Positions 23,862 to 48,061 of a DNA stretch of 64,000 bases are shown piece after piece. The first letter of the stretch is position 1, and every line of letters starts with the position of its first letter. The notes beneath the pieces are model-generated. The model worked only from the letters and a program-made list of their open reading frames with translations. It was not told the origin of the DNA and did not search any database. The DNA is from Paramacrobiotus metropolitanus (Eukaryota; Tardigrada; Eutardigrada; Parachela; Macrobiotidae). The translations under genes and the position numbers were made by a program. The stretch spans positions 248,001-312,000 of the forward strand of contig NW_026570266.1 of assembly GCF_019649055.1 (NCBI RefSeq), in the 5' to 3' direction.

Positions 23862-26800
23862 CGGCAAGAATTTTTAGAGACGAAGATACAGTCGATAATT
23901 ATGCGGATAGTTTTATTAAGTGGATTAACGATTTGGAATTAGGCGATATCGAGAAAACTAGCATTTTGCTTGAAGGATTGAAAAGTAATAAGCCAGATTG
24001 GTATAGGCATTTATTTATCATGAATATTACTGATCCGTACGAATTAATTAAGCACATGAGAGAGTTGGAAAAACTTCAGAATATTCTCGGTGGTGAGAAA
24101 AAGTCTCCTGAAACTCAGCGTATAAGTTCAGGCGGTAACAATGGTTTCAGCGGATTTAGCGGCACTTTCAGAGGTGGCCGTGGTAATTATGGAAGTCGCG
24201 GTAATTATTCAGCGAGAGGTAATTCCTTCCGTGGTCAGTATTCAGGGCGTGGTAATTATACACGTCAGTATAGTAATTTCGGTAATAATAATGGCGGTAA
24301 CTGGAGTGGTCAGCCTGTTCAGATGGTCCCACCAGTTTATCAGAATCCGGTAGTTTTGCAGCAGCCTGTGTTGTCTTCAGTACAGCAACCAGTATATGCT
24401 CCAGTTCAGATGTCGAATCCAGTGCAGATCTCAGATCAGCAGTCTTTCGTTCAGATGACGCAACAGCCAGGTAGTATGGCGATGGCTCCGGTAAACAGCG
24501 GTCAGCCAGTCCAAAATTTTCAGCCTTTGCAGAATAATCAGAATATGATGAATTCGCAGAATTTTCAGAATCAGGGTAATTTTAGGCAAATGGCGCCTAT
24601 GAATAATTTTCGCGGACAGAATAATTTTAGACCGAGATTTCAGAACGGTAATAATTTTAATCGCGGCGGTTTTAATGGAAATAATGGTAATGGAAATTTT
24701 CGTCCTCGGTTTAACGGTAATAATAATTTCGGAAATGGTGGTAATAATTTTGGAAATAACGGCGGAAATTTTTCGAATGATATTCGAAATGATCAGCAGC
24801 AGAATAATGGTCAGTTTAATGAGAGTCAAATTCAGAGAGACAAGTGGAGATTGTCGAATGGTAGGGAAATCTGCTATAAGTGTCATGATTTACATGCAGC
24901 GTCAGCCTGTCAGCGACCCTTAGCGTTTCCTCGTCTGATTGAGCCTACCCTAGAAATGTTGCGACGTTATGGTGCGCAGGTAAATGTGATTGAGTTCGAG
25001 TATATATGGCAGAAGAAACCAGCGCAGTGTAACACCACAGAAGTTATTGACATGTCGAAGTATCCAGCGTCAGAATTGGTAATTCATAAGCCGACGTTAG
25101 ACGCGCAGGCGTGGTACTGTACGATTGACGTGAATTACAAACAGGTTAAGGTCATGATCGATACAGGTTCGAGTATTTCGATAATTCCTTTTCGGTTAGC
25201 GAAGAAGTTAGATTTGCATATTTTTCAATGTCCGAGTCATGTTAAGGGTATCTTGGTAAATACGGCGTATAATGGTCAGCATGCAGTTGAACCTTTGTCG
25301 ACTCTGATTACTATTCATGAATTTGATACGGCATTTGAGCATACGTGTTTAGTAAGCACAAATTGCGATCGTGATCATATTATTTTGGGAATGGACTTTT
25401 TCGTTACGAAACCTTTCATTTTGGATTTCAGTTCGATGACTTGGCGAATGATTCGTCAGAATTCGTTAGCCAAATTACATGAGAATGCGTTGAGGAAAAC
25501 TTGCGATATGGATAAGATTGTCAGAGAGCATAATTTCGTAGAGTTAGCTCCAGTGCATACGTATTATGGTAAGTCGATTCCGGCTTTAATGCAGGCGAAC
25601 ATGTTGGGTTTCGCGCCGTATGCGGAATTTCTTCCGTATAAGACAGCGCATAATGTGTACATCGGTGCACCAGTCGATATTTGTCAGATGGAGATGGATT
25701 ACGCGGTGAGAAAATGGCAGAGAGTTTCAGATTCGATCTGTTATGCAGACGTAGATAATTCGGAATCTCAGTTGAGTGATAATCAGCAAGCAGGTGGCGG
25801 TAAGCAAGTTTGCGGGGGTGTATCTCAATCCACCGCCCAGCAGAGAGAAGTTACGGATAATTCGGCGATAAATCGTAGTGTAAGGGATTCAGAATTAGCG
25901 GATGTTCGTAAGCGATATGATAAATTACATGATGAACCGATAATGGTGAATAATCAGAACTTTCGCGGACAAAATAACGGCAGAATTTTTGAGGAAGAAG
26001 TTTTCAGTATTACGAATTCAGGTGAACAGCAAGTTTGCGGGGGTGTGTCTCAGCAAGTTTGCGGGGGTAATTCTTTCCCAGCTGATAGCAGTATTAAGCA
26101 AGTTTGCGGGGGTGAAAATAAGCGTGAGAACGTACGCGGTAATGTTGAGAATGTGCGTAGTTATGCGGTCCCACCCGCCCAAACCCTTCAGAATAATTCT
26201 CAGAATAAGAGTATTGTGCAGCGACGTACTTTTCCTGATTCGGATACAGTTAAGCGTAATCAGCATTTGATGGAGAAAGGTATTAATCAGCCAGCAGTTA
26301 ATGGCGATAAAGCGGTTAATAACGGTAAGTCCTTGACGATTGCGGGTAAGAAATTGAACGTAGTTCCGGTTGAACAGAATAATGGTAAGAGAGTGCCTGT
26401 TAAAAGTGCACAGTATAAAGTTGACTCTGATTGGAAACGTTGGATGATTCCGAGACTTGATCCGGAAACGCGTGAGATGAAACCAAGTCTTGCGGATTTC
26501 AATAAGGTCACGTTTTGGCGAGCACAGCAGCGAGCGCAGGGTGACGCTAAGTGTTGGTATCATTTGTACTTAAATCCTCATAAGGCAGATACAAATTTCA
26601 TTAAGGAAGAAATTAACTGGTTTACGATTTACGATGGAGTTTTGTGTCATAAGAATGAGGCGCGAGGCGCCAAACCACGTATTTTTGTACCGTATCATTG
26701 GCGTGTTAAACTAATTTTGGCAGTACATGCGGCAGTTAAACATGAGAAAATTTTGAAAGATACTACGACTTATCGTCTTTTGGTTGAAAAATTCTATTGG

Positions 26801-29758: not shown

Positions 29759-32109
29759 GGAAACTGTACATTGCAGTATAAGTGTTGTTAATTTTAGTAG
29801 ACATGAAATGATGTAATGAAGCGGCGTGTACGTAGGAGCTGCAATAAGCGTCTATAGTTGCATAATCAGTAGGCAGTGCTTAATAATGAGAATTCGTGTT
29901 GAAATTAGCGATGTGAAAATTTTTATTGTGGAAATCAGTAATCGCATGTAGTGTATTGGCTTAAGTGCACTCCCATAAATGCCGTCAGCATCATGTTTAA
30001 TTAAAGATTAATAGAGCTGTATGAAGTCAGAGCAATGGTGAATTTTGCAATAAATTTTTGTTGAATATTGTAGTGCATAGGCAAATACATAGGGACAGTT
30101 GGCTTGAGCTCACTGACAAAGTCCAGTCAATTTAAGAGACACAGTGGTTAATTGAAGTCTTACGCCCCATTTAAATGGAAACTTTAAACTTTCCCTTTTT
30201 ACTTAGAAACATATGGTACAATATACTTGTAAGCAGAGGAAATTAGGTCGTACGAGTTATTATTGTTTTGCGGTATGTAGAAATCAGAGTTTGGTGTTGT
30301 GAAAAAATTGTAGCGTAAAGGCTAACGAAGTACTGCATGTCGTTCAGAATGCTCATTATAGGCAATATAAGAACGGTAGTGGTCAGCAGCGGGCTGGCTA
30401 AGATAATCTTCTTTTACTGAAATTTCGTAGTATATTGGTCCAGTGTGGACGGTGATAGATGCAAAGTACGGACAAAGAATATCCCGGTTGTTCGCGTATG
30501 AATTTGCAAATTTAAACAATTTTTTTTTTTTAAATTATGGCATAGTTTTTATGAAATTGTTACAGCATAACTGGGTTGCAGTATGATTTTAAATAATAGG
30601 AGTAAATATGAAAGTTGTAGTGAAATGGTTATAAGCATTTCAAATCCATTCGAGTAATGTTCTCACAGCTCATGTAAACTTGAATGACAGATTGAGTCGG
30701 CGTTTCGGCGACTTAAAATTTTATTTTTGCGTATAAACGTAGTGAAATGAGTGTTTGGCAGATTCCCGTTGAACATAGCGTTAGCTTAACAAAGAAAGCA
30801 GCGATTAATGAAAATTCAGGATTTATCCTTTCCTTTTGTGAAATATCGAAATCAGGAATAATGTAGGATAGTTTTTCCATAAAACAGCGGACATGCTATT
30901 TTGCAGTATGATTCCGATTTTGAGTGCAGATGTGGTGAGTCGTAGTGTTATGGCTAAAACGCAGGAAATTCCATATATTGTTTGAATCAGACATTTTGGT
31001 ACAAATATGGATTTAACCGGTGCAAGCGGTTAAGAAATTTAAGTTTTTATGCACAAAATAGTTTTTGCACAAAAGATGTCGGTAAATTTTTGAATTAGTA
31101 AGAGAATCGGAGATTATGAATCGGTATCTGCTAGAAGTATAGCAAGTATTTGAATATTGCAACATCATGATTTCGAGTAAAGTTAGAAACAGTAGCGAAT
31201 CGTAGTTCAGGGGTTGAAACCCAGACCGATATCCGTTTAAAGAACCAGATCAGTTAGTATAGTAGCGGATTTAGACAGCGCTAAGGTGGCTTGAAATTTA
31301 AGTTTTTGCGGATTTACGTAGTATTAAGGCTTGGAGAGCAGCAAGCCATCCACGGCACTAAGTCTTTAAAAGTACGCGTCAATGTGTAAACCTCACTAAT
31401 AAAAATCAAATTTTAGAATTCAAACTTTTTGCCTCAGAAATCATGTTTTTGCAGAGGAAGAGTGTTATGAATTCGAAAAGCAATGAATGAGACTGTGTAG
31501 GAATAATTTTTGATCCGGTTATGAGAACTGTATATTGCGGCATGTGTAGTTTATTTGTTGTAAATATGAAATTTCGTAGAATACTGGCGTTAAGGTTCAG
31601 TATCTGCTGGTCTCGAAACGGTACGCATTCTTCACTTTGAAATTCGAGCAAACGATTATTGAAATTTATTTTTATCGCGAGTTTGTAGAATTGCGGCAGA
31701 GCGCGGAGTGGCCGTCTCAAGCCAATGCAGTTTGTGAAAATTTGTGTTAGCAAATGTGGGAAAGTGTAGTGTAATGACAGCTGCAGTTCTTCTATGCTAT
31801 TGTTGTCAATAAGCAGCTAGTAAAATAAAGGGAAAAGTTCGTATTTATTTTTCGAGATAATAATAAGAGAAGATTAAGTTTTTCGTAAAAAATGCAGATA
31901 ATGTAAGAAAATCGAAATACTTATGGAGTATGTGTATTTTTGAAAGAAACGGGTTGCGAGTCACGCGAAAACAGTTTTGATGACGTAATGCTCAGCACGT
32001 GCCAGATGAGCGGTCAGCAGTGGCGTGCTTTGTGGGTCGCGGAATTTTGTGTTCAAACAGTGTAGTTTTGCGCGGTGTAGAACTTGTCCATTAATTTTGA
32101 TGATGGATT
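29759..32109 (+). repeat. Degenerate tRNA-like repeat array, block 1
   Basis: No gene was seen. Units carry CGTAGTG-type words in an A-box-like frame (TAGTGTATTGG and similar) at 29,947, 30,069, 30,309, 30,426, 30,616, 30,739, 30,951, 31,201, 31,317, 31,575 and 31,684. Spacing is often 109-123 bp or about twice that. A T-run commonly precedes the motif by about 10 nt. TTGCRGTATG is a second recurring word. The unit at 31,575 has a partial B-box-like sequence (GGTCTCGAAAC). Confidence 0.55.
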
Positions 32110-32412
32110 ATGAATCCCTCTCGTGTTGGAAGACTGGATATTTTAGCTCAGCACTTTGATAAGTTTAGTTCAGAGAAATCTGTCGAAATGCCAGCGTTGA
32201 TTAAACCTGATGCGGAAGGTTTGATTCGCAGCGGTACGAAGACGATCTTCGTCCGCCAGTATAATCGTGAAAATGGCGAGAAAAGTGTGTTTGTGACCAC
32301 GGTCGAGGACGGACCGGAGGCGGAGAACTCGGAGTTTTGGGTGAAAGTTCACAGTCTGGTGGACGAGCAGTTGCAGAAAACTGCGCAGCAAGAGAATGAG
32401 GGTCAGAACTGA
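32110..32412 (+). CDS. LTR element cargo ORF 1, 100 aa
   Basis: Starts at an ATG with A at -3 and encodes a soluble acidic protein: MNPSRVGRLDILAQHFDKF, then a compact middle (KTIFVRQYNRENGEKSVFVTT) and an acidic, Gln-rich tail. Codon use is regular, unlike the repeat DNA around it, which supports coding. I recognise no domain. It may be an accessory protein of the element. Confidence 0.5.
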   Translation: MNPSRVGRLDILAQHFDKFSSEKSVEMPALIKPDAEGLIRSGTKTIFVRQYNRENGEKSVFVTTVEDGPEAENSEFWVKVHSLVDEQLQKTAQQENEGQN

Positions 32413-33377
32413 CCAGTGAAATGTATGGAGGAAGTGTGTGGAATTGTCTTTTCGGTATTCTGTTATTTGAGCTTTCAGTGAAAGCCTGCCTATTTTGAAA
32501 TCTTTATTTTTGTGAGATTTACGGATTTAAAGCTTTAATTTTGTGATGTTACACGGTTGGGAGAACTCAATGGTGTAAGCGCAGTAAAATAGCGGATTGA
32601 TTGCGATTTTGCGGTATTTGTTTGCAGAAATTACCTATTGCGTTGATGGATTGCGAATTTATGAATTTTATCAGAGAATTTGTCCTTCTTCTGTTTTGAA
32701 CACTTCCGAATTGAAAGTGTTCGGTATTTGCAATAAACGTGACGTCGACGGTGTATTTCCGGTTGTTGTACAGTATAACGTACTGAATGTATCCCAGCTA
32801 GGATATTAGCGGCAAAACTTATAGAAGAGTTTAAATGTATGGAAATGCATTGTAAAAACGCAAATCTGGGTGTTAAATAAACGTGTATACTTCCGAATCG
32901 TAAATTCTAAGTATTTGGGAAGAAAAAGGACTTCCGAGCACTATTGTGTAGTATGACACAGCAAAATACAGAATCCTGTATTGTAGCGTAACGAAGAGTA
33001 TTGTAGGGTGTAAATGTACTGTGAAGAACCCAGCAGTTGGGGATACATTTTGGAAATTCCAGACGGGTGTTTTCATCTGTCAGTTATAAATGTAAGGTAG
33101 AGAACTTAATTCTCTATCATTCTAAATAAAAAGGAAGGAAAGATTGGAGGTTTTTAAGGGAAAAGGAGTTGTTTTGCAGAAGTCAGTGGGGTAGCGAGCT
33201 GAGGCCCTGGAAATCAGCTGTGTGGCGATGGCACAATCGCAATGTTGTGGTTTTCGGACTTCGAAATTTTTGAATTCGAACACTTTTATTCCTTAAGATG
33301 TTCGTCGTGTTTTGAGCAGTCCGCTCGTCTGATCTTTGAAATTTCGCACCTTAGGAGTGCATTGGTAGTGATTTTCA
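32413..33377 (+). other. LTR element spacer, no gene recognised
   Basis: AT-rich sequence with short frames only (for example 32,597-32,809). AATAAA-like words occur at about 32,732. No well-formed tRNA-like unit was seen here. Confidence 0.35.
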
Positions 33378-33944
33378 ATGATGGCAGCAGCTTTTCGTGC
33401 GGATAAGAGTGGACAGGAGTTGATTGCTCCTATTCCTCGTCGTGTCGCACGTGTTGAGCCAGTAGAGAGTTCCGATGCGGAGAACATTGTGGTTTTGCGA
33501 GCGGATGGCGAACCTGTTGATTCGCAGCGACCTGTGGCATGTCGCCCGTGTGATTTGAAACGACGACCTGATATTAGTGGTCTGGAAAGAGCGTTGGAAA
33601 AGCTCGATCTCAACGAGGAAAAGAAAGCAGCGAAGAAGCGCGAAGCAGTCACTGGAATTTCAGTTAAGTTTGGTGTGAAACGTTCGGGATTTACGGTATT
33701 CCGTCGAACCGAAGTCGCGATCGAGAATACGACCATGCATTTGAAAGGAGAAACAGCCCTGGTGAACGAGCTGGTGCGGAAACTAAACGAGCACAGATTG
33801 AAGATTCGTCGCGTTTGGCAGAATGGTCGGATTGTGCGGATTTTGGGTCCCTCTTACACGGTTCCGTGGCGATGGTCGGCAAAAGTGAGAAATCGTCCGA
33901 TGCAGCACTTTCGGTGGTATACGTTTCCTAAAAATCGTCAATAA
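33378..33944 (+). CDS. LTR element cargo ORF 2, 188 aa, basic
   Basis: Starts MMAAAFRADKSGQEL and is rich in Arg and Lys. The middle has a charged helix (LERALEKLDLNEEKKAAKKR) and the C-terminal half looks like a small folded domain (FTVFRRTEVAIENTTMHLKG, LKIRRVWQNGRIVRILG) ending in a basic tail. The stop overlaps an AATAAAAC string that may serve as its polyadenylation signal. Nucleic-acid binding is plausible from charge only; no family is recognised. Confidence 0.55.
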   Translation: MMAAAFRADKSGQELIAPIPRRVARVEPVESSDAENIVVLRADGEPVDSQRPVACRPCDLKRRPDISGLERALEKLDLNEEKKAAKKREAVTGISVKFGVKRSGFTVFRRTEVAIENTTMHLKGETALVNELVRKLNEHRLKIRRVWQNGRIVRILGPSYTVPWRWSAKVRNRPMQHFRWYTFPKNRQ

Positions 33945-34249
33945 AACAGTTTTGTAACTGTGGTGGATTATGGTGTTTGTTTTTGGAAGAAGCCGTCTGA
34001 GAAATGAGCATTTCGACGTGTACGGTAATGATCCCGGTATGATTGTCGTATTTTGTTGGATTTGTATAGTGATCTCTTTTGTTATGTGTGTCGACGCGGC
34101 ATTACTTTGAATAAATAGTTGGTGGAAATTGTACAGCGTGTTAATAAATTGTGGTCTAATTATCGATGCGGTAGTTGGTAGAGCCAGTGTATAAACACAG
34201 TTTCCGTAAATTATCAGGGTAATGCGGTAAAATAAATAAAATTTATAGG

Positions 34250-34354
34250 AAATTCGTAGTGGCCGAGTGGTTAGCGAATGCCTCTGGGTGAATCACCTGT
34301 TAAAATTAACAATTGAGCGTTACGAGTTCGAGGCCAGTGTAGGGTAATATTTTT
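34250..34354 (+). ncRNA. tRNA-like unit, Ser/Leu-like
   Basis: TGGCCGAGTGG at 34,260-34,270 is a perfect A box and is the D-arm sequence typical of tRNA-Ser/Leu. GTTCGAGGC at 34,326-34,334 is a perfect B box, and T5 at 34,350 would terminate Pol III. The long A-to-B spacing fits a type II tRNA with a variable arm. Stems are too poor for a working tRNA. Confidence 0.45.
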
Positions 34355-34440
34355 GGGACTTATTTTTGTCAGAAGCGATGAATGAAGTAGCAGTTATGAG
34401 TAAAATTTATTAGCGGTGTAGGAAAATAAGAAATTATAGG

Positions 34441-34535
34441 AATTGGTAGATAGCGTGGTGGTTACGATCTTCAGTGAAGTCGAGTGTTTAAAACCACAGT
34501 CACGGGTATCAATCCCAAACGATTATTTTTTTTTG
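34441..34535 (+). ncRNA. tRNA-like unit
   Basis: TAGCGTGGTGG at 34,451-34,461 fits the A box at 10 of 11 positions. GGGTATCAATCCC near 34,504 resembles a T-arm and B box with one mismatch. A run of nine or more T follows at about 34,525. Confidence 0.35.
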
Positions 34536-34560
34536 CAGTTTATTTTGTGAATTATCGGTA

Positions 34561-34643
34561 GTTTAGTGCAAAGATCTATGGTGACGCCGTAATCAGTAAA
34601 ACTCTGTGTAACGGGGATCGAGTCCCTGGTAAAAATTTTATTT
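34561..34643 (+). ncRNA. tRNA-like unit with good T-arm
   Basis: GATCGAGTC at 34,616-34,624 is a perfect B box inside GGGG-ATCGAGT-CCCT, a plausible T-arm. An A-box-like TAGTGCAAAGA lies at 34,564. T-runs follow at 34,635-34,645. Confidence 0.4.
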
Positions 34644-36053
34644 TTAGTATTTATTCGGAAGTAGCAGTATGATGCAGCACGTGAATGGAAATTACAAATT
34701 ACATCAGAAATCGTAGTGTAAGGGCTTCAGCAGACAATTCTACAAGGACCCGAAGTGAAAACAACAAAAAACGATAACAGATGTTAAGAGCGGTAAATGA
34801 TAGGAAAAAACTTCACTTTTTGTAAATTCTTGCTGGTATATGTATTTTTCACTTCTAGCAGTATGAATTTCTGTAATTTTTAGTAAAGCCTCATTAGCGT
34901 AGTGGTTGAAGCCACGGACAACACTAAGTTTAGTCCTTTTGAGAAGTTGATATCCTGTCGGCATACAAAGGTTGATCCTTCAGAAATCAGGATAGCGCTT
35001 GTAGGCAACTTTTTATCCTTATTGAAATCGCAGTGTTTTATGGGTAGTAACCTTATAGACGCAGAACATGAGAAGCCTTCAAAAGCAGCATTTGTTCATG
35101 TGTTCCGGAGTTCGGTACTCAGCACAATCATAATTTTTGGTAATTTTCACCTGAATTTTAGTAGGATTTATATTTGTAAATATACGGCAGTATTTATCGT
35201 TAAGTATCAGCGGTATTTGGAATTGTTCTTTTAGTAACTGTGTAGTTGGCGCAGTGAGTGCGACCTTCGTGATATTTTCGCATTGCATACCAAGAGAAAC
35301 CGGTATCAACTCTTCAAAATAATTATAGGCGTGTATTATTTTTCGGTGGATGAACCTTGCAATTTCTAAGTCGCTGAAAAGTCAGAATGTTATTATTTAG
35401 CAGAAATTATAGTAATTTATAGGAAATCAGTTTTTGTATTGGCGGTGTATGTAAACTTCGATTTTAGCGGTATGTAAAAGTTGTAGAGCAGTGGCTCTAT
35501 TGAACGAACGCATCAGGAGTGCGCTGAGAAATCCTATGTATAGCAGAGCGGAAATTGCAGTAAAAATTCCTTTTTCCCTCGTAAAGCAATTTTTGAGTGT
35601 TTTATGATATTTTTGCGAATAACAGTTTGTGTATAATTAATTATGAGTATAAGAAATTTATCTTACTGATGGCGGAATATGTAAATTCTAGTAATTATTT
35701 TAGGCGAAAGCAGTAGTTTAGTGGCTATTCAATAAATCTGTACAGCAGCGTTATAATGTATGTTCAAGTGTAAAAATCTATGCAGTATGATTTGGAAATT
35801 CCTTTTTATTGGAAAATTAGTAGGAATTATTTTTGGGATGAAAATGCGGATTTCAGAATTTATCAAAATTGTGTTGTAATTGAGTAGCGGTAGTTATGAC
35901 GTTTATGTGCTTCAGTATGGTCAGCAGTTTGAGTCAGTATTGCGCGTTTTGAGCGGCAGAATTTTTCAGTGTTTCCGTTCGAGAGTGTGCGAGAATTTCA
36001 GTGGCAGAAATTTGATTTGAATTATTCTTAATTGTTGAGAATTTCGCATTATC

Positions 36054-36440
36054 ATGTCAAAGCGTGGTGAGATTATTAAGCAGCACAGCGGTGCTCGAGC
36101 TCTTTTGTTTCCTGAGAATGCATTTGATGATCGCGTGAAAATGGCAGACAGTGTGAGAGAGCGTGTGATGGAAGATCTCTCTTCCAAGGTTCTCGATTGG
36201 CATGTGAAAGACGACCTGAAGAACGAACCTAATGCGGCGAAAGTGGTGGAGAAAGCGAATGTTGAGACTCCAGTGCAGTCTCGTGAAGTTCCGAAAGAAG
36301 CAGAGAAGACGATGACCAGCGGGTCCCAGCAGTCAGCTAAGAGTAAGGAAGAAGCGGACAAAGAGTTCTTTCGCAAGTATTATCGTCCCTATAATCTTCC
36401 TCAGCCGAGAATTGATCCTCATTTTCCTCATGGTTGGTAA
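36054..36440 (+). CDS. LTR element cargo ORF 3, 128 aa
   Basis: Starts MSKRGEIIKQHSGARALLF from an ATG with A at -3. The middle is a charged, probably helical region (DSVRERVMEDLSSKVLDW, KEEADKEFFRKYYRPYNLPQ). The C-terminus is Pro/His-rich (RIDPHFPHGW). No domain is recognised. Regular codon use against the repeat background supports it as coding. Confidence 0.5.
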   Translation: MSKRGEIIKQHSGARALLFPENAFDDRVKMADSVRERVMEDLSSKVLDWHVKDDLKNEPNAAKVVEKANVETPVQSREVPKEAEKTMTSGSQQSAKSKEEADKEFFRKYYRPYNLPQPRIDPHFPHGW

Positions 36441-36762
36441 TGGACATGTTTTCGATTCTATGGAATTGTTCTCACTTAGTACCTTGATTTATCGGTGATT
36501 ATAGCTTTTATTCAGAGATTTTAGAGAGATTTCCTTGTGTTTGTGGAGCAGTATTTCAGCAGCATTTTAGATATTTTATTTGCGGATGTATCGGTGTTTT
36601 TGTTCAGTATTTAGTTGTAGATTTATTCAGAGGATTTAGTAAAGCTTTATTTCGGGTCTCTTATTGTTGGTTGGCAGATTAAAGCGGTGATTTTGCAGTG
36701 ATGTTGTTTGCTTGTCAGTTTATAGCAGTGTGTCATCATAATAACAGCGGCAGTAGTGGTGT

Positions 36763-36780
36763 TGGCGCCCCCCGGTACCA
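36763..36780 (+). other. Primer-binding-site-like sequence inside the element
   Basis: TGGCGCCCCCCGG matches the start of the element's own primer binding site (TGGCGCCCACCG) at all but one of its first 12 bases. It follows CATCATAATAACA, as does the similar site at 45,253. Confidence 0.45.
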
Positions 36781-37087
36781 TCACTCCTCACCATTCACTT
36801 GTCGTCTGTAAACTCACATTTAGGAAATAAGGTGTAAATAGGTAGTAGAAAATGACACGACAGGTACATTGCACGACAATGGCGCGTAACCATTTGTTCC
36901 TAGTAAATTCGGATGTAGGAAATGTGTATTGCGGTATGAAGAAGCAGTAATTTTGTAGTAGTGAAATTTGTAGTGTAGTGGCGTGAGATACTATCTCCAT
37001 GCCTCGGTTTAGCCCTACCTTTAATAACGAGTAGTAGTGGAAACTTTGACTTTTGCAGTGAGTGTTGGTATTTTTACCCTTGTGAAT

Positions 37088-37188
37088 TTCGTAGTAGTCG
37101 AGTGGTTATGAAGTGGCGCTACAGATCTGGATATTGTCATCGGTAGCAGTATAGCCATAGTTCGAAACCCGAGCAAGTTGTAATTTTT
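37088..37188 (+). ncRNA. tRNA-like unit with A box, B box and terminator
   Basis: TAGTCGAGTGG at 37,095-37,105 is a perfect A box, GTTCGAAAC at 37,160-37,168 a perfect B box, and T5 sits at 37,184-37,188. The A-to-B distance is 65 nt, as in tRNAs with a long variable arm or intron. Confidence 0.5.
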
Positions 37189-37324
37189 GTATTTCGGAGT
37201 ATGCATTTTTGCGGAATTATCTTTTTGGAAATTCAAGAAGTATTGCAGTAAAATTTAGAATGGTGTTAGTAACAGTAATTTTTCGGTATTAGCGGTGTGG
37301 TAGTGTTGTAATTTTAGTAATTTG

Positions 37325-37430
37325 CGTAGTGGCGCAGGGTACATGCTTTACAGATCATAGTAGTAATTCTGTCAAATAGTAGGACAAGCAGGTTTCGAGT
37401 TCAACCCGTGCTAGCAGTAGAATTTTCTTT
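37325..37430 (+). ncRNA. tRNA-like unit
   Basis: CGTAGTGGCGCAGGG begins the unit (near-match to the A box), GTTCAACCC at 37,399-37,407 is a perfect B box, and TTTTCTTTT follows at about 37,423. Confidence 0.45.
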
Positions 37431-37626
37431 TCCATTCAGTTTTGAGCAAACGAATGACTTTTTATTTTTAGTAAATCGTAGGAATAGTATTATGAATCAT
37501 GACATAAGCGGAGATTAGATTTGTAAAAATTAAGAACTGTTGTGGTAATACTTACCGGAATTGTTATAGGCAGTTATACAGCAGCAGTTTAGGGCATAAT
37601 AATTTACGGCATTTGTTGTGAAAATT

Positions 37627-37734
37627 CGTAGTAGTGCAGCGGGTCTATTGATTAGCATATGTTAAGCTAAGTCAGATTTTAAACGGCTTTACTTCCGTAG
37701 CACTTGTTCGATTCCCCTTAAGGGCGAACTTTTT
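37627..37734 (+). ncRNA. tRNA-like unit with A box, B box and terminator
   Basis: TAGTGCAGCGG at 37,632-37,642 is a perfect A box, GTTCGATTC at 37,706-37,714 a perfect B box, and T5 lies at 37,730-37,734. The A-to-B distance is 74 nt, longer than in a plain tRNA. Confidence 0.5.
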
Positions 37735-38189
37735 GTAAAACTTTGGTTTTGTTTTTGTGTTGTCAGTATTCAGTAATTATTTTGCATTAGTATTTACGGT
37801 GAAATCACTTGAGAAATTATGAATCTTATATTTATGATGATTAAGCGGATAACCTTATTACTCAGTGAATTATTAGCGGCTTTAGCAGTAGCAACATTGT
37901 CAGTAGTTTTACTTCGTATTTTTATTGGATTTCGTAAAACACAGAAATTGTACTTCGTATTGAACATTGCGGCAGTATCAGAGTACGCCAGAAAAATAAA
38001 ATCAAAATAGAACTTTATCACCAGTGTTCATCGTAGTTGAACAGTATTCACTCGGTAATTTGTGCAGAATATACAGAATAAAATCGCAAAAGGCGATCGG
38101 AATAAAATTGAACGCAAATATACAAGAGGTAAGAGAAAAGATAAAAGAAATAAAATCAATACAGCAGACACAGTAAAAGACTTCGTAAT

Positions 38190-38579
38190 TCAGTTCTTCT
38201 TGAAACGCTTGGCAGCAGGAGTTTTCAAATGCAGAGATCCATCAGGTTTGCGTGAGAAAACCATAGCAACCGATTTAGGCATGTCTCCACGTGTGTCAGT
38301 TCCTGGTGCGTTAGGACGCTCAGCAATCACAGTAGTTGGATCGCGTAGCAGAGATAGTGTGTCCTCAGCAGTCTCAGTTTTCGGCAGTAGCGGAATAGGA
38401 TTTGCGGCCAAGAGTCCACACAGAGGCATCGGTCCGTGCATCGCAGCAGCATCGATTTTCATGGCAGTTTGACGCAGAATACTTTGTGCCTCAGTTCCGA
38501 GATAGGGAATTCGTACTTCGATAGTAGTTCCTTCACGAGCACAGCGATCACAGCCACGATTATGCTCTTGAACCAGCAT
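38190..38579 (-). CDS. LTR element cargo ORF 4, antisense, 129 aa
   Basis: The minus-strand frame starts MLVQEHNRGCDRCAREGT and ends in a basic tail (TPAAKRFKKN). The CDRC pair and basic end are the only notable features. The competing plus-strand frame (38,062-38,472) looks less protein-like. It lies just downstream of the larger antisense ORF. Splice-donor-like and acceptor-like sequences face each other across the gap, so both could belong to one antisense transcription unit; I keep them separate. Confidence 0.45.
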   Translation of the reverse strand: MLVQEHNRGCDRCAREGTTIEVRIPYLGTEAQSILRQTAMKIDAAAMHGPMPLCGLLAANPIPLLPKTETAEDTLSLLRDPTTVIAERPNAPGTDTRGDMPKSVAMVFSRKPDGSLHLKTPAAKRFKKN

Positions 38580-38828
38580 TCCTGTAATGATAGTAAATCA
38601 GTAGGGAAATTTATACAGAAGTTGTAGTCGTAAAAATTCAGTATTTATAGTCACTAACTGCAGATAATTAGCGGAAATATATAGGAATTAATTTTGTTAA
38701 TATTTAGGCGGAAACGAAGAGTATGCAGATTTGTTGTGGTAATTAGTAGGGAAATACTCGCAGTAAAATATAGGGTAATTATGCAGTAATTATTGATGCG
38801 GAAATAAGAGATTTAGTAAGCGGTGAAC

Positions 38829-39485
38829 CTAGCGGTGTTTGATCTTACCGACTCCTCGTGCTAATTCGTCCGACAGTCCTTGAGTTCGTCGATCAGTCAT
38901 TTCGCGGTATACGATCGCACTCACGAACTTGTCTCCTCCGACAGACGTTAGGCATCCGATCTCCAGTAAGAAGTTTCTTTCCTTGTGGTAGTACTTGATC
39001 CAGTTGTGTAAGCAGACAGTGTATGTTGTTCGGATGACGCGTTGAATTTCAAATTTCGTCATTGCGTACCCTCCTTCCTCCAGCACAGTCAGAATAGCGT
39101 TTCGCAGTTGCAGTCGCGTGGTGATTTCCTCGTTACGATCTCGCTGAATTCGTGACGATACTTCCAGGAAACAACGTCCTTCTTTCACTCTTTTGCGTAG
39201 GAACCCAGAAGTTACAGCAGTCTCGATGTACTTGTCGATGTTCAGCACGGTGAATTCATGGTGTGCGTTGTTCAATGTAGCCTTTAGATAATCAACATCC
39301 ACGTAAAATCCAGAATCGGTGTGATATCCTATGATAGTTCGGACAGCGAACCGGAAAGCCTCATACAGTCGCATTTTTCGCGTGTAAAAACTCGTAGTGT
39401 CACGATCGAAAATCTGCTCGATACCAACATGCAGTCCAGGAGGCGCAGTAGATAAGGAAGTAATAGGGTTTAGCATAGCGGACAT
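38829..39485 (-). CDS. LTR element cargo ORF 5, antisense, 218 aa
   Basis: Starts MSAMLNPITSLSTAPPGLH from an ATG with A at -3. The body seems to hold two related segments of about 70 residues: AFRFAVRTIIGYHTDSGFYVD to SGFLRKRVKEGRCFLEV, and LRNAILTVLEEGGYAMTKFE to GCLTSVGGDKFVSA. Each has a helix-helix-strand rhythm that recalls winged-helix DNA-binding folds, though that is only inference. It is the largest antisense gene in the element and would need its own promoter. Confidence 0.55.
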   Translation of the reverse strand: MSAMLNPITSLSTAPPGLHVGIEQIFDRDTTSFYTRKMRLYEAFRFAVRTIIGYHTDSGFYVDVDYLKATLNNAHHEFTVLNIDKYIETAVTSGFLRKRVKEGRCFLEVSSRIQRDRNEEITTRLQLRNAILTVLEEGGYAMTKFEIQRVIRTTYTVCLHNWIKYYHKERNFLLEIGCLTSVGGDKFVSAIVYREMTDRRTQGLSDELARGVGKIKHR

Positions 39486-39840
39486 TTCGGTAATTATAGG
39501 TCACGCTTTAAGGAAATATAACGTCTCAGTAATAATCTCGGTGAGAAAAACATATGAGGAAACAGAACTGAAAATTTTTCGGAAGCGGTGATGACTTTTA
39601 TAGGCTTATAGCAAGAAATTGTGCAGTTGTATGTGTCTATGTGTGTATCGCCCTTGTACGGCAGTGTGTCAGTGCAACCCGTAGTACGTATGTTCTTCTC
39701 ATGTATTGTACGCCTCAGTACTTTAGCGCGTATTTCAGTGCAGATGTACAGTCTTACTTCTTAGAATTATGGAATTGTTAGTTTTTGCGGTCAGATTTTC
39801 AGATTATCAGATTTTAAATAGTAGGATATCTTTTTCCTTA

Positions 39841-39871
39841 TTGCATGACTTGCGCCCAAACGTGGTTCAAA
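39841..39871 (+). repeat. LTR-end/primer-binding-site relic inside the element
   Basis: TTGCATGACTTGCGCCCAAA then CGTGGTTCAAA parallels the 5' LTR end and primer site at 20,157-20,186 (TTGCACGACATGGCGCCCAC, then CGTGGTTCAAA). The similarity spans the LTR/leader boundary, so it looks like the leader of a second, related element fused into this one. Confidence 0.5.
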
Positions 39872-40108
39872 TATGCGGAAATAACCTTCAGTTGGGGAAA
39901 AGTCAACTTTACAGTAAATTGTCGGTGTAATTAGTAGTGTACGATTAACCCTCGTGGTATGGCAGTTTGGTGTATAGTATGTTGAGAGCGATGACAGTGC
40001 AGATTTGTTGTGGTTTTTAATTCAAAGAGATACCGACAGTGTTGTGATTTCGTCAGAGCAGTGAACTCTTTTGTTGTGGTTTTTCGATTTTGATATTTTT
40101 CGGTAATC

Positions 40109-41104
40109 ATGCCTCCTAAAGCGATTAAACGCAAGCGGGAAGAGAGTTCTTCATCTTCTTCTCCCAGTAATAGCAGTTCGAGTAGTAGTGTTAACTTTGC
40201 TGATGAATCGGAAGTGTCTTTCATTTCGATCTCCAGTATTCCTTCGAATGAGTCAGATGTGACGGAAACTCAGAGATTTTTGGCAGATGTCGATCCTTAC
40301 GCAGTTGATTATATTGTGAGAGAACCTGATCCTGAAATTGGTAATCGCAGTGACGTAGCAGATGTTGAGAGTGTGCACAGCGGCAACTCCAGTGCAGGTC
40401 TTGATAAATCAGCGGAAATGTTCGATTGTTTTCAAGAAGACGGGAAACGTTATAAGGTGATCTCTACGACCGATACTGAAAGTTTTACGACATTGATATC
40501 TACTCCCAGCGAAACGTATGATGACGAAGATGAATTTGCGTCGTGTTCAACTGGTCCTTTACCTAACACTGCGGAGAGATTAGCTAATTTGGCGGATGTG
40601 AATGTTGAAGTAGAGTCAGATCGCAGTTCGGAGTTTGAGGAACAACCTATGGTGTATCACGAGAAAACCCCTCCGAAACGTGATGATAAAGGTAACATAG
40701 TCCTTCATCCTGGAACTCGTTTGTTTTTGAATGGCAAGTTGTACCATGCCGGAAAACTTATCAGTGTGAAGAAGTTTAACCATTTTGTGCGTAATATGTC
40801 CAAAGAACGGAATCTATATCTTAAAACCCAGTATTTATTTGCTCATCCTGATTCGATTGAGAGTCTAAACTTGATTGCGCAGTTGCATCGGAGAAATGAC
40901 AGCGTCGTCGACTTTCCCACGCGGATGATGTTCAATGGCGGGTTATTGCATTCGCAGCATGTTGATAAACCTTCCCCAGCAGCAGTGCGGAAGAGACAGC
41001 GGGAAATGAGTCCTGAAATCGTTGAAATCCCTTCAGTTGTGTTGTCGCGTGAATCTTCTCCTGAAATCCCTGTTCAGTCGCGTAAGAAGCAACGAACTTT
41101 TTGA
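40109..41104 (+). CDS. LTR element cargo ORF 6, 331 aa, acidic with basic ends
   Basis: Starts MPPKAIKRKREESSSSSSP, a likely nuclear signal followed by a serine run. The first half is acidic and disordered. A compact region around residues 190-290 (LHPGTRLFLNGKLYHAGKL, FVRNMSKERNLYLKTQYLF) may be folded. The C-terminus is basic again (VQSRKKQRTF). It lies 240 bp after the primer-binding-site relic. No family is recognised; a nuclear or chromatin-linked role is only suggested by the basic ends. Confidence 0.6.
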   Translation: MPPKAIKRKREESSSSSSPSNSSSSSSVNFADESEVSFISISSIPSNESDVTETQRFLADVDPYAVDYIVREPDPEIGNRSDVADVESVHSGNSSAGLDKSAEMFDCFQEDGKRYKVISTTDTESFTTLISTPSETYDDEDEFASCSTGPLPNTAERLANLADVNVEVESDRSSEFEEQPMVYHEKTPPKRDDKGNIVLHPGTRLFLNGKLYHAGKLISVKKFNHFVRNMSKERNLYLKTQYLFAHPDSIESLNLIAQLHRRNDSVVDFPTRMMFNGGLLHSQHVDKPSPAAVRKRQREMSPEIVEIPSVVLSRESSPEIPVQSRKKQRTF

Positions 41105-41524
41105 TCTTTTGTTGTCAGTCAGTGTTGTTGTGTTTTTACTTGGAATGGTGTGTAGTATTACGGTAACTACGCGGAAATTGTCTTTTGTTACTTGCAGTCG
41201 TTGTACAGGAACGGTAGTATTTTTGTGTCAGTGCTTATCGCGGTATTTTCTAGTTTTTACTCTGGTCGTACGGATCGGTGTACTATGACGTATTTCACTT
41301 TTTTATTCGTTGATCAGTATAATCGGTGTGGTGCAAGTACGAATTGCGGATGTATGGTCGTTCAGTCATTAAAATTCGTGAGCGTGTTAGCGCTAATGCG
41401 GTTGAAGTTTTGCAGTCAGATTTCAGTGTGTGGTTTGAGAACTTTGAATTCACTTTTCATTTTTATTTGGAGATTTTATTGCGACCTTTTTCATTTATTT
41501 CCTGGTCATTTTTGCTTGGTAGTT

Positions 41525-42448
41525 ATGGATCTTAACGCAGCTTTTAATTACATGGTAGATGCTTTGTGTAGTAACGGTCATCAGTATGGTAATCGCGGAA
41601 ATTATTGTGGTCGTGGCAATAATCGGCGTATGAATTACTATCGTCCTTATTCTCGTGGTGGTTATCGTGGAAGAGGTTATAACGGATATCAGAATAATGC
41701 GCAGCAGTGGCAGCGCAATCCTCAGTATCCTTTGGCAAATAATGGCGGAAACGGTGTTAACGGTGTTCAGTTGGTCGTATCGGAGAATGTACCTATTGTT
41801 GGAGCGGTTATGCCTGTTGTGAATAATCCTGGTTGGCAAGCTCAGAACGCGGAAGTTGTCCAGCAGAACATGGCGGCTTTGCAGTTGAATCAGCCTATGG
41901 CGAATGAGGAAATGGATATTAACGAAGAGAACATTGTTCCTCAGCAGCAAGGTCAGAATGTCGGTAATGCTAACGGTGTTGTTGTTGCGAACGATCAGAA
42001 TCCTCTGGCGGTTGGCAATGTGGTGAATCCTGAAGTTGTAGTTCAAGTTGCGAACAACGTCCAGAATGCGATGAATGGCGGAAATGTTGCGGCAGAACCT
42101 TCTCAGAATGTTGTGGTGAATGAACCTTCAGTTGTGGTTCCTGGTATTGCGTATGTTCCTATGAATGGTGACGGAAGACCTCAATATCCTTCAATCAATC
42201 CCTCGGATATTTTTCAGCGTAACGCAGATGAAGAGCGTCGAAAACAGTCAGCAGAGCGAGCTCGTATGGCGGCGGATGCTAAACGAAATGATTTGTCCGG
42301 TTTGCAGTCGCGTTCCTCATATCCTGATGTGCAGCGCAGTCGTCTTCGCGTTCAGTCTTCAGATAACCTCGTCGCTCCTGATCCTAGAGCCCATCGCCGT
42401 AATAATTCTGTTGATAATTCTTTGCAGTCAGCCTGTAAACCTCAGTGA
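41525..42448 (+). CDS. LTR element cargo ORF 7, RG-rich, 307 aa
   Basis: The ATG at 41,525 was chosen as the first ATG of the protein-like part; the open frame extends upstream to 41,192 without ATG support. The N-terminus is rich in RG and Tyr (NRGNYCGRGNNRRMNYYRPY, RGGYRGRGYNGYQNN), like the RGG stretch of the element's gag at 24,130-24,330. The middle is Asn/Gln/Val-rich and low in complexity, and the C-terminal part has a charged helix (NADEERRKQSAERARMAADA). AATAAA lies about 150 bp after the stop. RNA binding is plausible. Confidence 0.6.
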   Translation: MDLNAAFNYMVDALCSNGHQYGNRGNYCGRGNNRRMNYYRPYSRGGYRGRGYNGYQNNAQQWQRNPQYPLANNGGNGVNGVQLVVSENVPIVGAVMPVVNNPGWQAQNAEVVQQNMAALQLNQPMANEEMDINEENIVPQQQGQNVGNANGVVVANDQNPLAVGNVVNPEVVVQVANNVQNAMNGGNVAAEPSQNVVVNEPSVVVPGIAYVPMNGDGRPQYPSINPSDIFQRNADEERRKQSAERARMAADAKRNDLSGLQSRSSYPDVQRSRLRVQSSDNLVAPDPRAHRRNNSVDNSLQSACKPQ

Positions 42449-45400
42449 TGTCATGGTCTATAACTTTGTGCATTGGCATTTTTGTCATGATTTTGCGGTG
42501 CATTGTGAATTTCTTTTCGCGTTTCTATGTTCTCAATTTTTGCTGTATATACGTTCGCGAAAGTCAGTCAAGTTCTCAGTTCAGTCGTGTGTTGAATAAA
42601 CGTTCGGTGTATGGATGATGTATGAAGTATGGAAGTGCGAAGATGGAAGTAGCGGAAGTAATTGGAGCAGTAATTTTGGAGTTATAGGACATTTTCCATC
42701 GTATTTTAGCTGTGCAGTATGATGCGGTAAGATTTTAGGTAATATAGAATTTCGTAGTGCATTGGCTCAGTGATCACAGTTTATGGGCAATGTTAGCGGT
42801 ATTAACGGGTGCTATTACTCAGTATTGCTATAGCTTGTGAAATATGATTTTGCAGTATGTAGTTCGAAATTTTATTTTTCGTATCACTTCGTAGTGAATG
42901 GGCTGTTGAGTAATAGTATGAGTTCGTGTAGCCTAGCAGTGCAAATACGTCAGCGTGTTGAAGTATTACAGTACTATTTCAGAAATTTGATTTTGCGGTA
43001 TGTCCTTTGAACTTCAATTTTTTGTGGATTTTCGTAGAATTACGGCTAGTAAGACTAAGAATGTTTCGGTAGCAATCGGCATTTACTCTCTTCTGTCAAT
43101 TTTGGGTGTGCTATAGATTTATTAACATCGCGGTATGAGAATTTGAGTTTTATTTTTTGCGGAATTTCGTAGTGTGAAGGCCTTGTAGTATTTTCGGCAG
43201 ATGCAGTAGCGGCATTCTAGCTCTGTAGTTCATCAATTGACTCATTCTAGCTAAGAGATTACTTAACAATAATATGCGATATGCGGTTTCGAAATTAAAT
43301 TTTTGTTACATCATGTAGTATCATAGCTGTAGGGATTTTAACTGTAATTTGGCAGATGAAAACCAGTTAGCAATAACGGATTACAGATTAGTCTTTCGGG
43401 AATAGCTTTTTGCATTATGAATTTATCTAGTATTTGTTTGCGGTTTGAGATTTGGAATTTGTATTTTAGTGGCGATTTGTAGTGTTGCGGCTTATAAAAA
43501 TACTGGTTTAATAACACCTCAGTATATTGCCGAATAGTGGACAGATACGGCGTAAATAACCTTGTATTCAGATTTATGCAATATTCCTAGAACTTAACTT
43601 TTTCAGTTTTTGCGTACTTACCTCATCATACTGGGTTATTTGTAATCAATTGACTCGTAAAATTTGACGCTAGTATTATCGGACTTATCTTTCAGCAGTA
43701 CAGTATTAGTGTATTTGTTCAACAGCGGCATGTTTACGTTGCAGTGTGAATACCGAATATCGTAGTGTTATGGCGTGTACTTCGTACGAAATGTTCATCC
43801 TGTGTTTGTAGCACGCTTTGATAAATTAAGGCTTATGCCAGTGAAACTTTCCTTTTTGTTGAATTATGTATGGGTTAGTAATTTTTGCATAGATATTAGC
43901 TTTTGTAATGGGTGTTGGCATATTTGTCAGAAGCAGCTTATAGTCGTGGTACAGTAGTATGTGGATTTTCGTAGTGTGACCGATAGCTTATAACACACAA
44001 GTGGTCATTTTGAGTAAATCAAGCAGTAGTAATACTAGTTGCAGCATTTTCGGTAAAACTTCGGTTTTTAGTGATTTCGGTAGTAAAACGTATTTTGAGC
44101 TGTTAAGCACTTCTCAGTAGTCAGATTTGCAGTTTTCGTGCAAATAAAACGAAGCATAAGATCATAAGCAGTAATATTTTTGTTGTTGTAAGAATGGTGT
44201 ATTACTTTTCAGTAGGTGCAGTATTATTATGTGTCTGTGTAGAAATTCGTAGTGTGGTGTCCAGCTCGAATGCTGTATGGAAGTTGATCTTGAACGTAGG
44301 TGATTTTGACCAATGAATTTGTTCCAGCTTTGTGAATAATATCAGTAAGCAGTTGAATTTTCCTTTTTTCTCGGAAATTGATAGCGGTGTAGTATTTTTG
44401 TGCGTTCCCACCCTCCCAATCCCGTTTCAGAAATAATTATGGATGCAGCCTGAAATTGGTAGTAGTAATTTTCGTGATTGTTTGTAGTAGAATGGCTCTA
44501 TGAGAACGGTGCTCCTCCGGTTGCAGCGGTTTAAATCAACAGTTGTTTCCAGTATTACGCGCTTGTTGCTAATAAGCTCAAAAATAGAGTTTTGTCAGTA
44601 GAATTTTGAAATAACTTTTTGCGGTAATAGTGTTAACGCTTATCGGTGTCACCATTCCACACTATTTGGTTGCATCCCAATAACCCAATTATTAATCAGT
44701 GTAACTTAGCAGTAATTCGCAGAATATGCAGTAATTTTTATCTCAGTATAGGTAACTCGTAGTCCAGTGTTTCAAATGGAATATCAACCAGTTTGGTCAA
44801 GGAAGCGTTATTAGCAGTGCAGCATATGATTTTCTGTATTAATTTTTGTTGAACTTCGTAGTGTAATGGTTTTATATCACTGTATCGGCGGTCATTAAAA
44901 GCTTACTCCAACATATGTGATATTCGCTTTAATATTTATAAATGCAGAATTTTCAGTACCTTTTTACCTTTTGCGGCATGTTAGCAGTAACTTTTAGCAG
45001 TATCGGAGTATCGTAGAGTAGTGTTCGTGTATGCAAGGATATCGTACCAGAACCTTTCCTAATAACTTTGTGCGGTGTGTGAACTTCGATTTAACTTTTT
45101 GCAGTCGTTAGTAGTAGTTCGGCTTGTGGGTGTAGATAAAATTGAGCATTGAACAAGATTCCTTAAATGTTAATATGCAGTAGTGCAAATTTCCTTTTTG
45201 TAACATCATAATAACAACTTTTAACATCTTATCATCATCTTGATAACATCTTGGCGCCCCCGTTGGCCCTTAAAACTTTTAACACCTTCAGATAATTATA
45301 GATGCGGTATGTGTATGGTTAATATTTTCGGTATCGGTAGTTTGTAGTTGATCGGCTTTGTGTTGTCTATACAGATGGATGTGTGGAAAGTCTTATATAA

Positions 45401-46760
45401 ATCCTTACTTGCGGTATTTAGAGTCTCGGTAGTAGTTTTAGTAATTCTCGTAGTTTATCGGCATGTTGAGTCAGCGCGACGTGTAACGGTTTTCTTTAAC
45501 CAACAGTGCGTTAGAGCTAATGCAGATGGCCAGTTTCGTAGGAATTATTTTTTTGTCGAGAATTCGTAGTGTAGAGCTTTATGACGGCAATGTAGCTGGA
45601 TTAATTAATGATTCTCTCAAATTCAGTCGGTGCGGTATGTAGTCAAATTTCTGTCTTTTTGTCGAATGTCGTAGGCTAGCGGTCTTTATATCCATATCGA
45701 TGTCTTCTTAATCTTCTGTAGCAGTTAAAACCAGTGCACTTGTAGTATGTTGCGGTAGAACTTTATTTTTGTGAATCAGCGTAGGATATCGGCTTTAGTG
45801 TGTGTTTCTCATCATCCAGTTATAAGCTTACAGGATTTCGATTATTGGTGTTTGTAGCGGTAAAACTTCTTTTTCGTTCAATGTTCGTAGTTAGACGGCT
45901 TAAGATCCAGCAAATCCTTTATATCGTCTATATCTCAGTAATAATATTGTTGTGTTTAAATTCTGAACTTTTTGCCTTGTTAAGTTGATATTGCCTTTGC
46001 AGTATGATTTTTAATAGCGCTAACTTTGTGGCTTATCGTAGTGTCTCGGCTTTAATCGCTTGTAGATCTTTTATCATTGCATCTTAAGTGCAGATTTACT
46101 CTTCATTTTCAGTAGCAGTATAGCAGTTGGCTTCAGTTTTTGTTAATTTTCGTAGTATTATGACTTTCAGTCCATCAATCAGCTCTGCTTTCACGTACAG
46201 ACAGCATTGAATTAGCAGATAAGCTTTCGCAGCATGTGCAGTAGAACTTGTATTTTTATTAACATACGTAGTGTAGTGTCTTTTAGTCCATTTATGCAGT
46301 ATTGCAGTTGAGCGCTTTGTAGAATAGAATGATGCACAGATCCTACATTTTATCACAGTCAGCAACTTTAGAATTCTCAGTTTTTGTTAATTTTCGTAGT
46401 ATGTTGTCAGTTTAAGCGTTTTGCATTGCGTATCGTCTGAACTTAGTCTAAACTAGTATTTCTTATCAGTGCAGTATGATTTATAGAATTTCTTCTTAAC
46501 TAGCTTTCGTAGTATAATGTCTGATGGTTCGCTTCCTACCACGTTTCGTGACTTAGTGCAGATATAACCTTCCTTGTTGCAGTTAGGCTTTTAATCCTTT
46601 AATTTTTATTAGTTGTTCGTAGTGCAGTGGTTTTAGTAGACGAATACTTTCGTGCTGTTGCCAGTCGGATAATACGGAATAACATCTAAATGATCAGTCT
46701 TAAAGCACTTAATGCTAAAACAACATCTTTTTCAACATCTTTTTAAATACGATAACACCT
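42449..46760 (+). repeat. Degenerate tRNA-like repeat array, block 3
   Basis: No gene was seen. About 25 units carry TTCGTAGTGTANTGGCTT-like words at 42,751, 42,887, 43,031, 43,166, 43,312, 43,476, 43,761, 43,967, 44,246, 44,482, 44,757, 44,855, 45,011, 45,562, 45,669, 45,779, 45,884, 46,036, 46,150, 46,266, 46,393, 46,506 and 46,616. The spacing is 135-165 bp at the left and tightens to 105-127 bp at the right. A TTTTTG run usually lies 8-15 nt before each motif. B boxes are mostly eroded. Confidence 0.6.
45253..45270 (+). other. Primer-binding-site-like sequence inside the element
   Basis: TGGCGCCCCCGTTGG resembles the element's own primer site TGGCGCCCACCGTGG. It is again preceded within about 70 bp by CATCATAATAACA. 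Confidence 0.4.
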
Positions 46761-47065
46761 TGGATCTCATGGACGTTCCTGCCTTCCGCCTTTCCACCTC
46801 CTTGGACTTCCGGATTGCCAGTTACGCTCCAGGATCCGATGACCTATAACTCAAACTCACTTACAACTTACCGGATCAAGCGATGTTACTTACTTTTGAT
46901 GGCACCGGATAGTCGGGATGGAATTTGGCGATAGTGCTAGATGTTGCACGCACTATGCGGATGGAGCAGATGTTATTTTTTCCTATGTCCCTATGTTCCT
47001 TCCTCTTCGTTCCACGTCGTTCCGCAGAGCTTCACTTTTGTTCCACTACGATCCAGAGAAATCTC
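46761..47065 (+). other. LTR element 3' untranslated region
   Basis: Composition changes sharply to C/T-rich DNA without the tRNA-like words. No ORF of note. It probably represents the conserved 3' end needed for reverse transcription. Confidence 0.4.
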
Positions 47066-47076
47066 GTTTGCGGGGG
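47066..47076 (+). other. 3' polypurine tract
   Basis: GTTTGCGGGGG directly abuts the TG of the 3' LTR, where plus-strand DNA synthesis is primed in LTR elements. The same word is repeated five times inside the gag-pol region. Confidence 0.75.
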
Positions 47077-48061
47077 TGACGTGTACTGGCGTCCCTTAGT
47101 ACACATCGGTACTACTTTACTACTTCTACCCTTACAACTAAGGCTTAGGCTTTACTACATCTTCTACGCGAGTCCTGACCCCGAGTCTCTACTTCGACTT
47201 CTCAGAAATCCCCAGCAGAGAACTTTGACCGCGACTTGCCATTTCGACGTGACCGCGCTTCGATGACGTAGCTCAACCTATTGTTCTAGTGTATTAGCTG
47301 ACCTCTTGTTCTCATTTGTCCACGTGTAGTTGTGCAGCGGTGTGATTAGTCCACGTGTCCTCAGATGTCTCTTATTGGTTAGATCCTAAATCCCTATTGT
47401 TCTCAGACCCGTACCTGCGCGTACGAAGAGCCAGCACTTGCGGTGCCCAGGGCTATATAAGGCGCTCGTCGCCCACACAAATGTCAAGAGTTGTAATCCC
47501 AACAAAAGTAGAGTCTTGTTACTCGATCTGATTAACTTCAGGCTTTTGCTCTGGTCTTCTCTTTCCAAGTGAGGCTGTTCAAACTGACCTCTGGGTGACC
47601 TTTCACCTATTGTCAGGGGTCATTCCTCTACTTCGTCGACGTGCATTATCATCTTCGGATAGTCTCGTGACGTAACAGGCTACCCACTTGATCCCACTTG
47701 TTTGCCTTGACCTTTCGGTCCCTTCGATCTTCATGCCCTGTAGCGCCAGGTTGATGGATTTGTCATACTCATACGCTTCGGCTACCATCTAGCGTCGGAC
47801 AGGAAACGTATAACATCACGCATCCCTTGTGTTTCCTTTCGTGTCTTCTCTTTCAGCAGGCTTTCGAGTTCCGGATCCTCTTCTTCATCCTTGCATATCA
47901 TCTCATACTTGTACATCAACATCCTTAACCTTTCGCTCCATGAAATACATAAGAAGTTGAGATTAAGAGTAGCTCTATTCCCCCGACTGGTCGTGGTCCG
48001 GGAAGTGCATATTTCCATCGCACACAACACGTCTTTCATTCTATTTCTATATTGCACGACA
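47077..48061 (+). repeat. 3' LTR
   Basis: 985 bp, TGACGTGTACTGG to TATTGCACGACA, with TATATAA at 47,454. It differs from the 5' LTR by one additional 3-bp unit near 47,882 and no substitutions that I found. Confidence 0.92.

Follow-up and report, generated by a model that had tools for sequence, protein, structure and literature searches.

A one-way array of a host-wide 22-bp word, a putative cluster of host-factor binding sites, in a giant LTR retrotransposon of Paramacrobiotus metropolitanus

A giant, probably gypsy-like LTR retrotransposon of the tardigrade Paramacrobiotus metropolitanus carries 36 direct copies of a 22-bp word, arranged in three noncoding blocks between pol and the 3' LTR. 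The element lies in a 64,000-nucleotide stretch of contig NW_026570266.1 (positions 248,001 to 312,000), hereafter called the window. The core of the word (GTAG and GGC) is near-invariant over 13 other copies of the element while the spacers diverge. As the word is also scattered through the host genome, the array looks closer to a landing-site cluster for a host protein than to a row of tRNA-like genes. The best explanation, to which we give about an even chance, is that some 36 degenerate sites are clustered here to be bound by a host factor, much as Su(Hw) sites are in the Drosophila element gypsy, a classic example of a retroelement with clustered host-protein sites, though the two arrays are unrelated in sequence.

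The two LTRs, 99.7% alike over 985 aligned positions, confirm the retroelement identity proposed in the first-pass annotation (Table 1), and the paired LTRs, the target-site duplication ACGC, the primer-binding site and the polypurine tract are Ty3/gypsy-like hallmarks. The gag frames overlap in the window copy; other copies have the full match in a single open frame. The 1966-aa ORF lacks RVT_1 and rve (Pfam, E ≤ 1) and returned zero matches at E ≤ 0.001 as a protein-search query. It holds two integrase zinc-binding stretches (Pfam) and, by eye, two stretches resembling the N-terminus of reverse transcriptase (RT), the pol of the window copy being an RT-less, partly duplicated, long open frame. 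RVT_1 is present inside at least two other element copies (150 of 1953 candidates scored). Four ORFs 3' of pol (188, 331 and 418 aa on the + strand, 218 aa on the − strand) have no Pfam family over the cut-off; the minus-strand one is possibly a captured gene. The + strand GC skew runs from +0.19 to +0.36 in the element interior (21000-38000), is about 0 in the flanks and is negative in the LTR bins. The element is flanked by paralogous ORF-bearing repeats of 75-81% DNA identity (1431-2367, 8122-9070, 13634-14359, 49444-50185 and 61787-62513), and the flanking ORF repeat at 13619-14350 has neither a PDB match nor a Pfam match over the cut-off.

Table 1. Features of the retrotransposon and its array, in window coordinates.
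Feature	Position	Strand	Remarks
LTR retrotransposon	19184..48061	+	28,878 bp; ACGC flanking both ends; ends read from sequence
5' LTR	19184..20165	+	LTR self-match
Primer-binding-site-like TGGCGCCCACCGTGG	20166..20180	+	Abuts 5' LTR; read from sequence
gag match	23595..24088	+	Split over two reading frames in window copy; C46:271595-271816 and 271783-272088
1966-aa ORF (pol)	23858..29758	+	Protease and integrase zinc-binding matches (Pfam, E ≤ 1)
Array block 1	29946..31781	+	10 sites at ≥8 bits
Array block 2	34711..36985	+	4 sites at 8 bits
218-aa ORF	38829..39485	−	Opposite to element direction; no Pfam family over cut-off
331-aa ORF	40109..41104	+	No Pfam family over cut-off
418-aa ORF	41192..42448	+	RG-rich stretch; no Pfam match at E ≤ 1
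Array block 3	42752..46634	+	22 sites at 8 bits; right end most regular
Last unit TCGTAGTGCAGTGGTTT	46617..46633	+	Example of 17-bp core word
GCGGGGG, polypurine-tract-like	47070..47076	+	Abuts 3' LTR; read from sequence
3' LTR	47077..48061	+	LTR self-match

The array, with consensus GAATTTCGTAGTGTAGTGGCTT, was scored with a site matrix trained on 44 sites outside the LTR family of the element (consensus GGGTTTCGTAGTGTAGTGGCTT). Element, repeated or gag-near loci (L052-L054, L061-L063, L066, L073 and L074) were left out of the training; some of the kept loci (L029 and L072, which are one place, and L043) have a gag match less than 7 kb away, and 'outside the family' therefore still allows for other transposons. 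Between positions 29759 and 46760 the matrix found 36, 29 and 22 sites on the + strand at 8, 10 and 12 bits and none on the − strand at any of these thresholds, whereas 20 shuffles gave on average 0.8, 0.2 and 0.15 sites and never more than 3. Elsewhere in the window, at 8 bits, it found 0 and 1 sites in the flanks, and two on the + and one on the − strand of gag-pol. The first-pass annotation had described an array in three blocks inside an LTR element, which is borne out, and the array is strand-specific; the 18-mer of that annotation gives 37 matches with up to five mismatches in a + strand scan of the same span. Counting both strands, the window has 61 occurrences of TCGTAG, where 23.8 are expected, and none of 100 shuffles reached 61. 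The earlier claim that the spacing converges to about 105-127 bp was correct for the right-end positions (46036, 46150, 46266, 46394, 46507 and 46617, spaced by 114, 116, 128, 113 and 110 bp), but the whole array is aperiodic, only 13 of 35 spacings falling within 100-145 bp; in block 3 the sites at 43459 and 43477 overlap. A tandem satellite or minisatellite does not fit: the units share short parts only, and Tandem Repeats Finder gives a single row in the array span, with a 24-bp period (38739-38793). AACATC words are repeated near the array end (45205-45255 and 46680-46760), with nine in the region against 2.3 expected.

The genome (169.8 Mb, 533 contigs) has 41 matches to the 5' LTR, from which 13 further pairs of LTRs, spaced by 20-28 kb, were assembled. 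The pair on C240 (L021) shows no similarity to the element within the 10 kb taken and was left out of the pile-up, which consists of 13 aligned other copies and the window. The 14 regions of 10 kb lying 5' of other 3' LTRs contain 20, 7, 18, 16, 20, 4, 5, 15, 18, 22, 17, 14, 0 (L021) and 19 sites on the + strand, compared to 22 in the window; − strand sites occur only in L015 (five; the stretch is largely inverted) and L022 (one). Judged from inverted ORFs, L015 (C17:553659-563658) has a long inverted segment with LTR-like sequence inside the element. In the pile-up the core columns have a mean majority identity of 0.989, compared to 0.935 when the motifs are placed at random (2000 draws, none above 0.969). 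Variable columns make up 7 of 88 in GTAG words within motifs and 73 of 272 in those elsewhere; for GGC the figures are 2 of 36 and 25 of 123. The sites for this footprint were picked on the window sequence, which favours the letters of the window, and the same words elsewhere serve as the control. Leave-one-out frequencies are 1.00, 0.94, 1.00 and 0.90 along GTAG and 0.90, 0.69 and 0.67 along GGC, where the last position is T in 0.24. The GTAG and GGC letters are kept owing to their place in the motif.

The array units also share features outside the word. A GCRGTW box lies 10-50 bp upstream of 21 of the 36 array sites but of only 3 of 40 other sites; 14 of the 36, compared to 3 of 40, have a T5 run in the 30 bp before them, whereas downstream of the array sites no T5 run was found (0/36 in each of two windows). 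The earlier statement that many units are preceded by TTTTTG, as by a Pol III terminator, therefore holds for a minority. This composite unit of GCRGTW box, T-tract and word is specific to the array and, as array units often carry two parts missing at other sites, suggests descent of the units from one composite unit.

Genome-wide, with element copies included and the reversed word as control, the word was counted 421 times against 41 (18 letters, two mismatches), 174 against 4 (17 letters, one mismatch) and 1811 against 192 (14-mer core, one mismatch). A matrix trained on the array was passed by 20 of 20 one-kb loci outside the element family, and by eye twenty 1-kb loci had nothing in common beyond the word. 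The 52 sites outside the family are preceded by a weak G-R-R-W-T and have in common a single isolated column at +56, which is not conserved in the element copies. Recent transposon remnants were rejected as the source of the dispersed sites on the basis of one locus, whose matches were its own sequence, a nearby duplicate and three fragments of some 50 bp on C117; old remnants are still a conceivable source. Where gag relatives sharing about 60% identity occur, the word is found some 3 kb upstream of gag and points the opposite way (C12:71555-71614, C13:1316033-1316092, C22:1343845-1343904 and C6:3134609), and at three of the four places it is paired 43 bp apart. The genes near the dispersed sites are animal-like. 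Those with sites in their introns or alongside are taken by us to encode a BTB-BACK protein, a cyclic-nucleotide phosphodiesterase, an insulin-receptor-like kinase, a cadherin, a Kv-like channel and a 7tm receptor.

According to the preferred explanation, a sequence-specific host factor, most likely a DNA-binding protein, would read about 20 bp, and the dispersed copies of the word in unrelated host sequence would be its host sites. The element may have acquired the composite unit and multiplied it via exchange between units, with selection keeping GTAG and GGC while the spacers drift. Loading many copies of the factor could then create an insulator or boundary, or allow the element to control its own chromatin state and expression, in the manner of gypsy and Su(Hw). 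We infer that the target is DNA rather than RNA, and the orientation of the dispersed sites bears on this point. To orient sites relative to genes, 20 ORFs at 14 loci were picked by reading frame and GC3, with a usable Pfam hit at 10 loci, where the main sites are sense to the nearest Pfam-hit gene in six cases and antisense in four, as expected for a DNA site. At least two of the antisense main sites lie between exons of their own gene (L026 and L064); the antisense kinase locus also holds a sense site. Against a DNA site stand the single direction of all array sites, for which tandem duplication may account, the GCRGTW box and T-tract, which are equally readable in RNA, and the same-direction neighbours within 1.5 kb, which a plain DNA site does not need. 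Weaker neighbours at this distance from sites outside the family tend to face the same direction, doing so in 26, 23 and 16 cases and the opposite one in 9, 6 and 6 at 6, 7 and 8 bits, compared to 17+12, 9+7 and 7+5 in the reversed-sequence control (20 of 30 loci from the 17-letter list). Long-range co-orientation, apparently complete in the 17-letter list, failed in the 14-mer list (six same, seven opposite, among neighbours about 9-50 kb apart, tallied by eye over 100 listed places), and only the short-range effect stands.

Given the co-oriented neighbours at other loci, the function might be directional or act through RNA. The strongest competing reading, which we regard as unlikely, is an RNA-level role: a sense transcript would present about 36 sites to a host RNA-binding protein, whether for export, for packaging, or to shield a very long RNA against splicing or early polyadenylation. 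Such a role would fit the 36-to-0 orientation, the position of the array in the noncoding part of the transcript, the T-tract and GCRGTW box upstream of many units and the co-oriented neighbours, but it is at variance with the four of ten main sites that are antisense to their gene, including those between exons. The fold tests likewise gave no consistent structure, although an unstructured RNA site would fit them too. Nine of ten units fold no better than shuffles, while 42746-42880 folds well (z −3.45), and 120-base windows have mean z values of −0.48 (+ strand) and −0.12 (− strand) in block 1 and +0.57 and +0.37 in block 3; a structured RNA unit was rejected on these values and on the nine units.

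Considerably more doubtful is that the units are promoter-like, either A-box (TFIIIC) sites or promoters of small-RNA genes, one per unit. The word is A-box-like, as had been claimed, TAGTGTANTGG fitting the A-box pattern, and we take it to resemble the 5' part of tRNA-Val. In the openly available part of the literature GTTTCCGTAGTGTAGTGGTT turns up in papers several of which concern tRNA fragments, and a search with the 14-letter word TCGTAGTGTAGTGG matched only a paper on wheat tRNA fragments. A host tRNA match (C63:345425-345497) overlaps TGTGGTGTAGTGGTTATCAC and has G at a column where all 31 array sites, scored with this column left out, have A. The tRNA-Val likeness is real as letters but short, and we take it to be a shared short word. 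The dispersed single sites are also reminiscent of motif-driven nematode piRNA loci, as far as the partial accounts of these go. However, the tRNA-like units that the first-pass annotation had proposed found no support: ARAGORN found no tRNA, and the covariance-model scan gave nothing at the Rfam gathering cut-off and one chance-like, non-tRNA match at E ≤ 10. B-box-like sequences (at least 7 of 9 letters) show no clear excess, lying downstream of 6 of 52 sites outside the family (L066 and L073 kept), compared to 2 of 52 both upstream and in the reverse complement, and at 5 of 36 array sites as in the control (5 of 36). Nor is conservation centred on the A-box letters, the G before TAG (0.986) and the C after GG (0.990) being as firm as TAG and GG themselves, and A14 is A in just 61% of the units. 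A tRNA gene or tRNA-derived SINE is thus rejected, with no clear sign of paired A and B boxes at tRNA spacing and no cloverleaf match. A U1 promoter element, tried in one orientation, gave one match against none in the control, about the chance expectation. A link of the word to TFIIIC is still conceivable.

Block 3 has six large deletions across the copies, and at five of their junctions two sites meet in register (random rate 0.013), or at four of five when two that are the same junction are counted once. Same-direction core pairs 86-116 bp apart number 12 genome-wide and none in the control, 11 of them by position in the element family and one elsewhere. That the word is a passive repeat, kept without function by recombination or conversion between units, would agree with these in-register joins and with the L014 copy, which has lost block 3 almost wholly, but is very unlikely because unrelated sequence is also enriched in this core and GTAG and GGC alone are held amid variable letters between and beside them, a retention too patchy for conversion tracts.

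Compared to the gypsy element of Drosophila, which according to the available text has 12 Su(Hw) sites within 340 bp of its 5' UTR (PMC2374998), the array shows a similar general design: both are LTR elements, that of Drosophila of Gypsy type and the present one probably so, in which a degenerate, host-wide motif of about 20 bp is clustered in AT-rich surroundings. A clustered motif that the host carries elsewhere too, as in an insulator cluster, is indeed present. However, the published gypsy consensus YRYTGCATAYYY (PMC2374998) is by eye unrelated to the matrix consensus, and the roughly 36 sites of the array are spread over 17 kb on the 3' side of pol rather than in the 5' UTR, spaced by at least 106 bp bar one overlapping pair. 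Endogenous Su(Hw) sites, with a 20-bp in vivo consensus, are isolated in that account (PMC2374998), whereas the dispersed sites of the word are loosely clustered. As motif, place and spacing differ and binding at the array is putative, the element is not filed with gypsy/Su(Hw). Giant gypsy-like elements are already known from the Burro elements of planarians (PMC6431247), which are likewise near 30 kb and have extra ORFs, as compared by description; the part of that description available to us shows tandem repeats in a figure and mentions no motif array. Extra-TFIIIC (ETC) sites, as partly described in PMC4226948, resemble the present sites in an A-box-like, dispersed word with a possible boundary role, but differ from them in the B-box result and in the A-box conservation given above. 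A CENP-B box was rejected, its TTC part not being specially conserved in the array.

No such array is described in the mainly open-access literature covered on retroelement insulator clusters and giant LTR elements, most subscription papers lying outside this search. Tentatively, the abundant 22-bp host word may mark an architectural or genome-regulating factor, and the giant retroelement may have gathered the sites of this factor, along with two extra boxes, into an unusually large cluster in order to commandeer it. If true, this would be a second, unrelated and larger case beside gypsy and Su(Hw), which would suggest that such clusters evolve repeatedly. The 22-bp word would provide a concrete bait for the host factor and for what its dispersed sites do in the genome.
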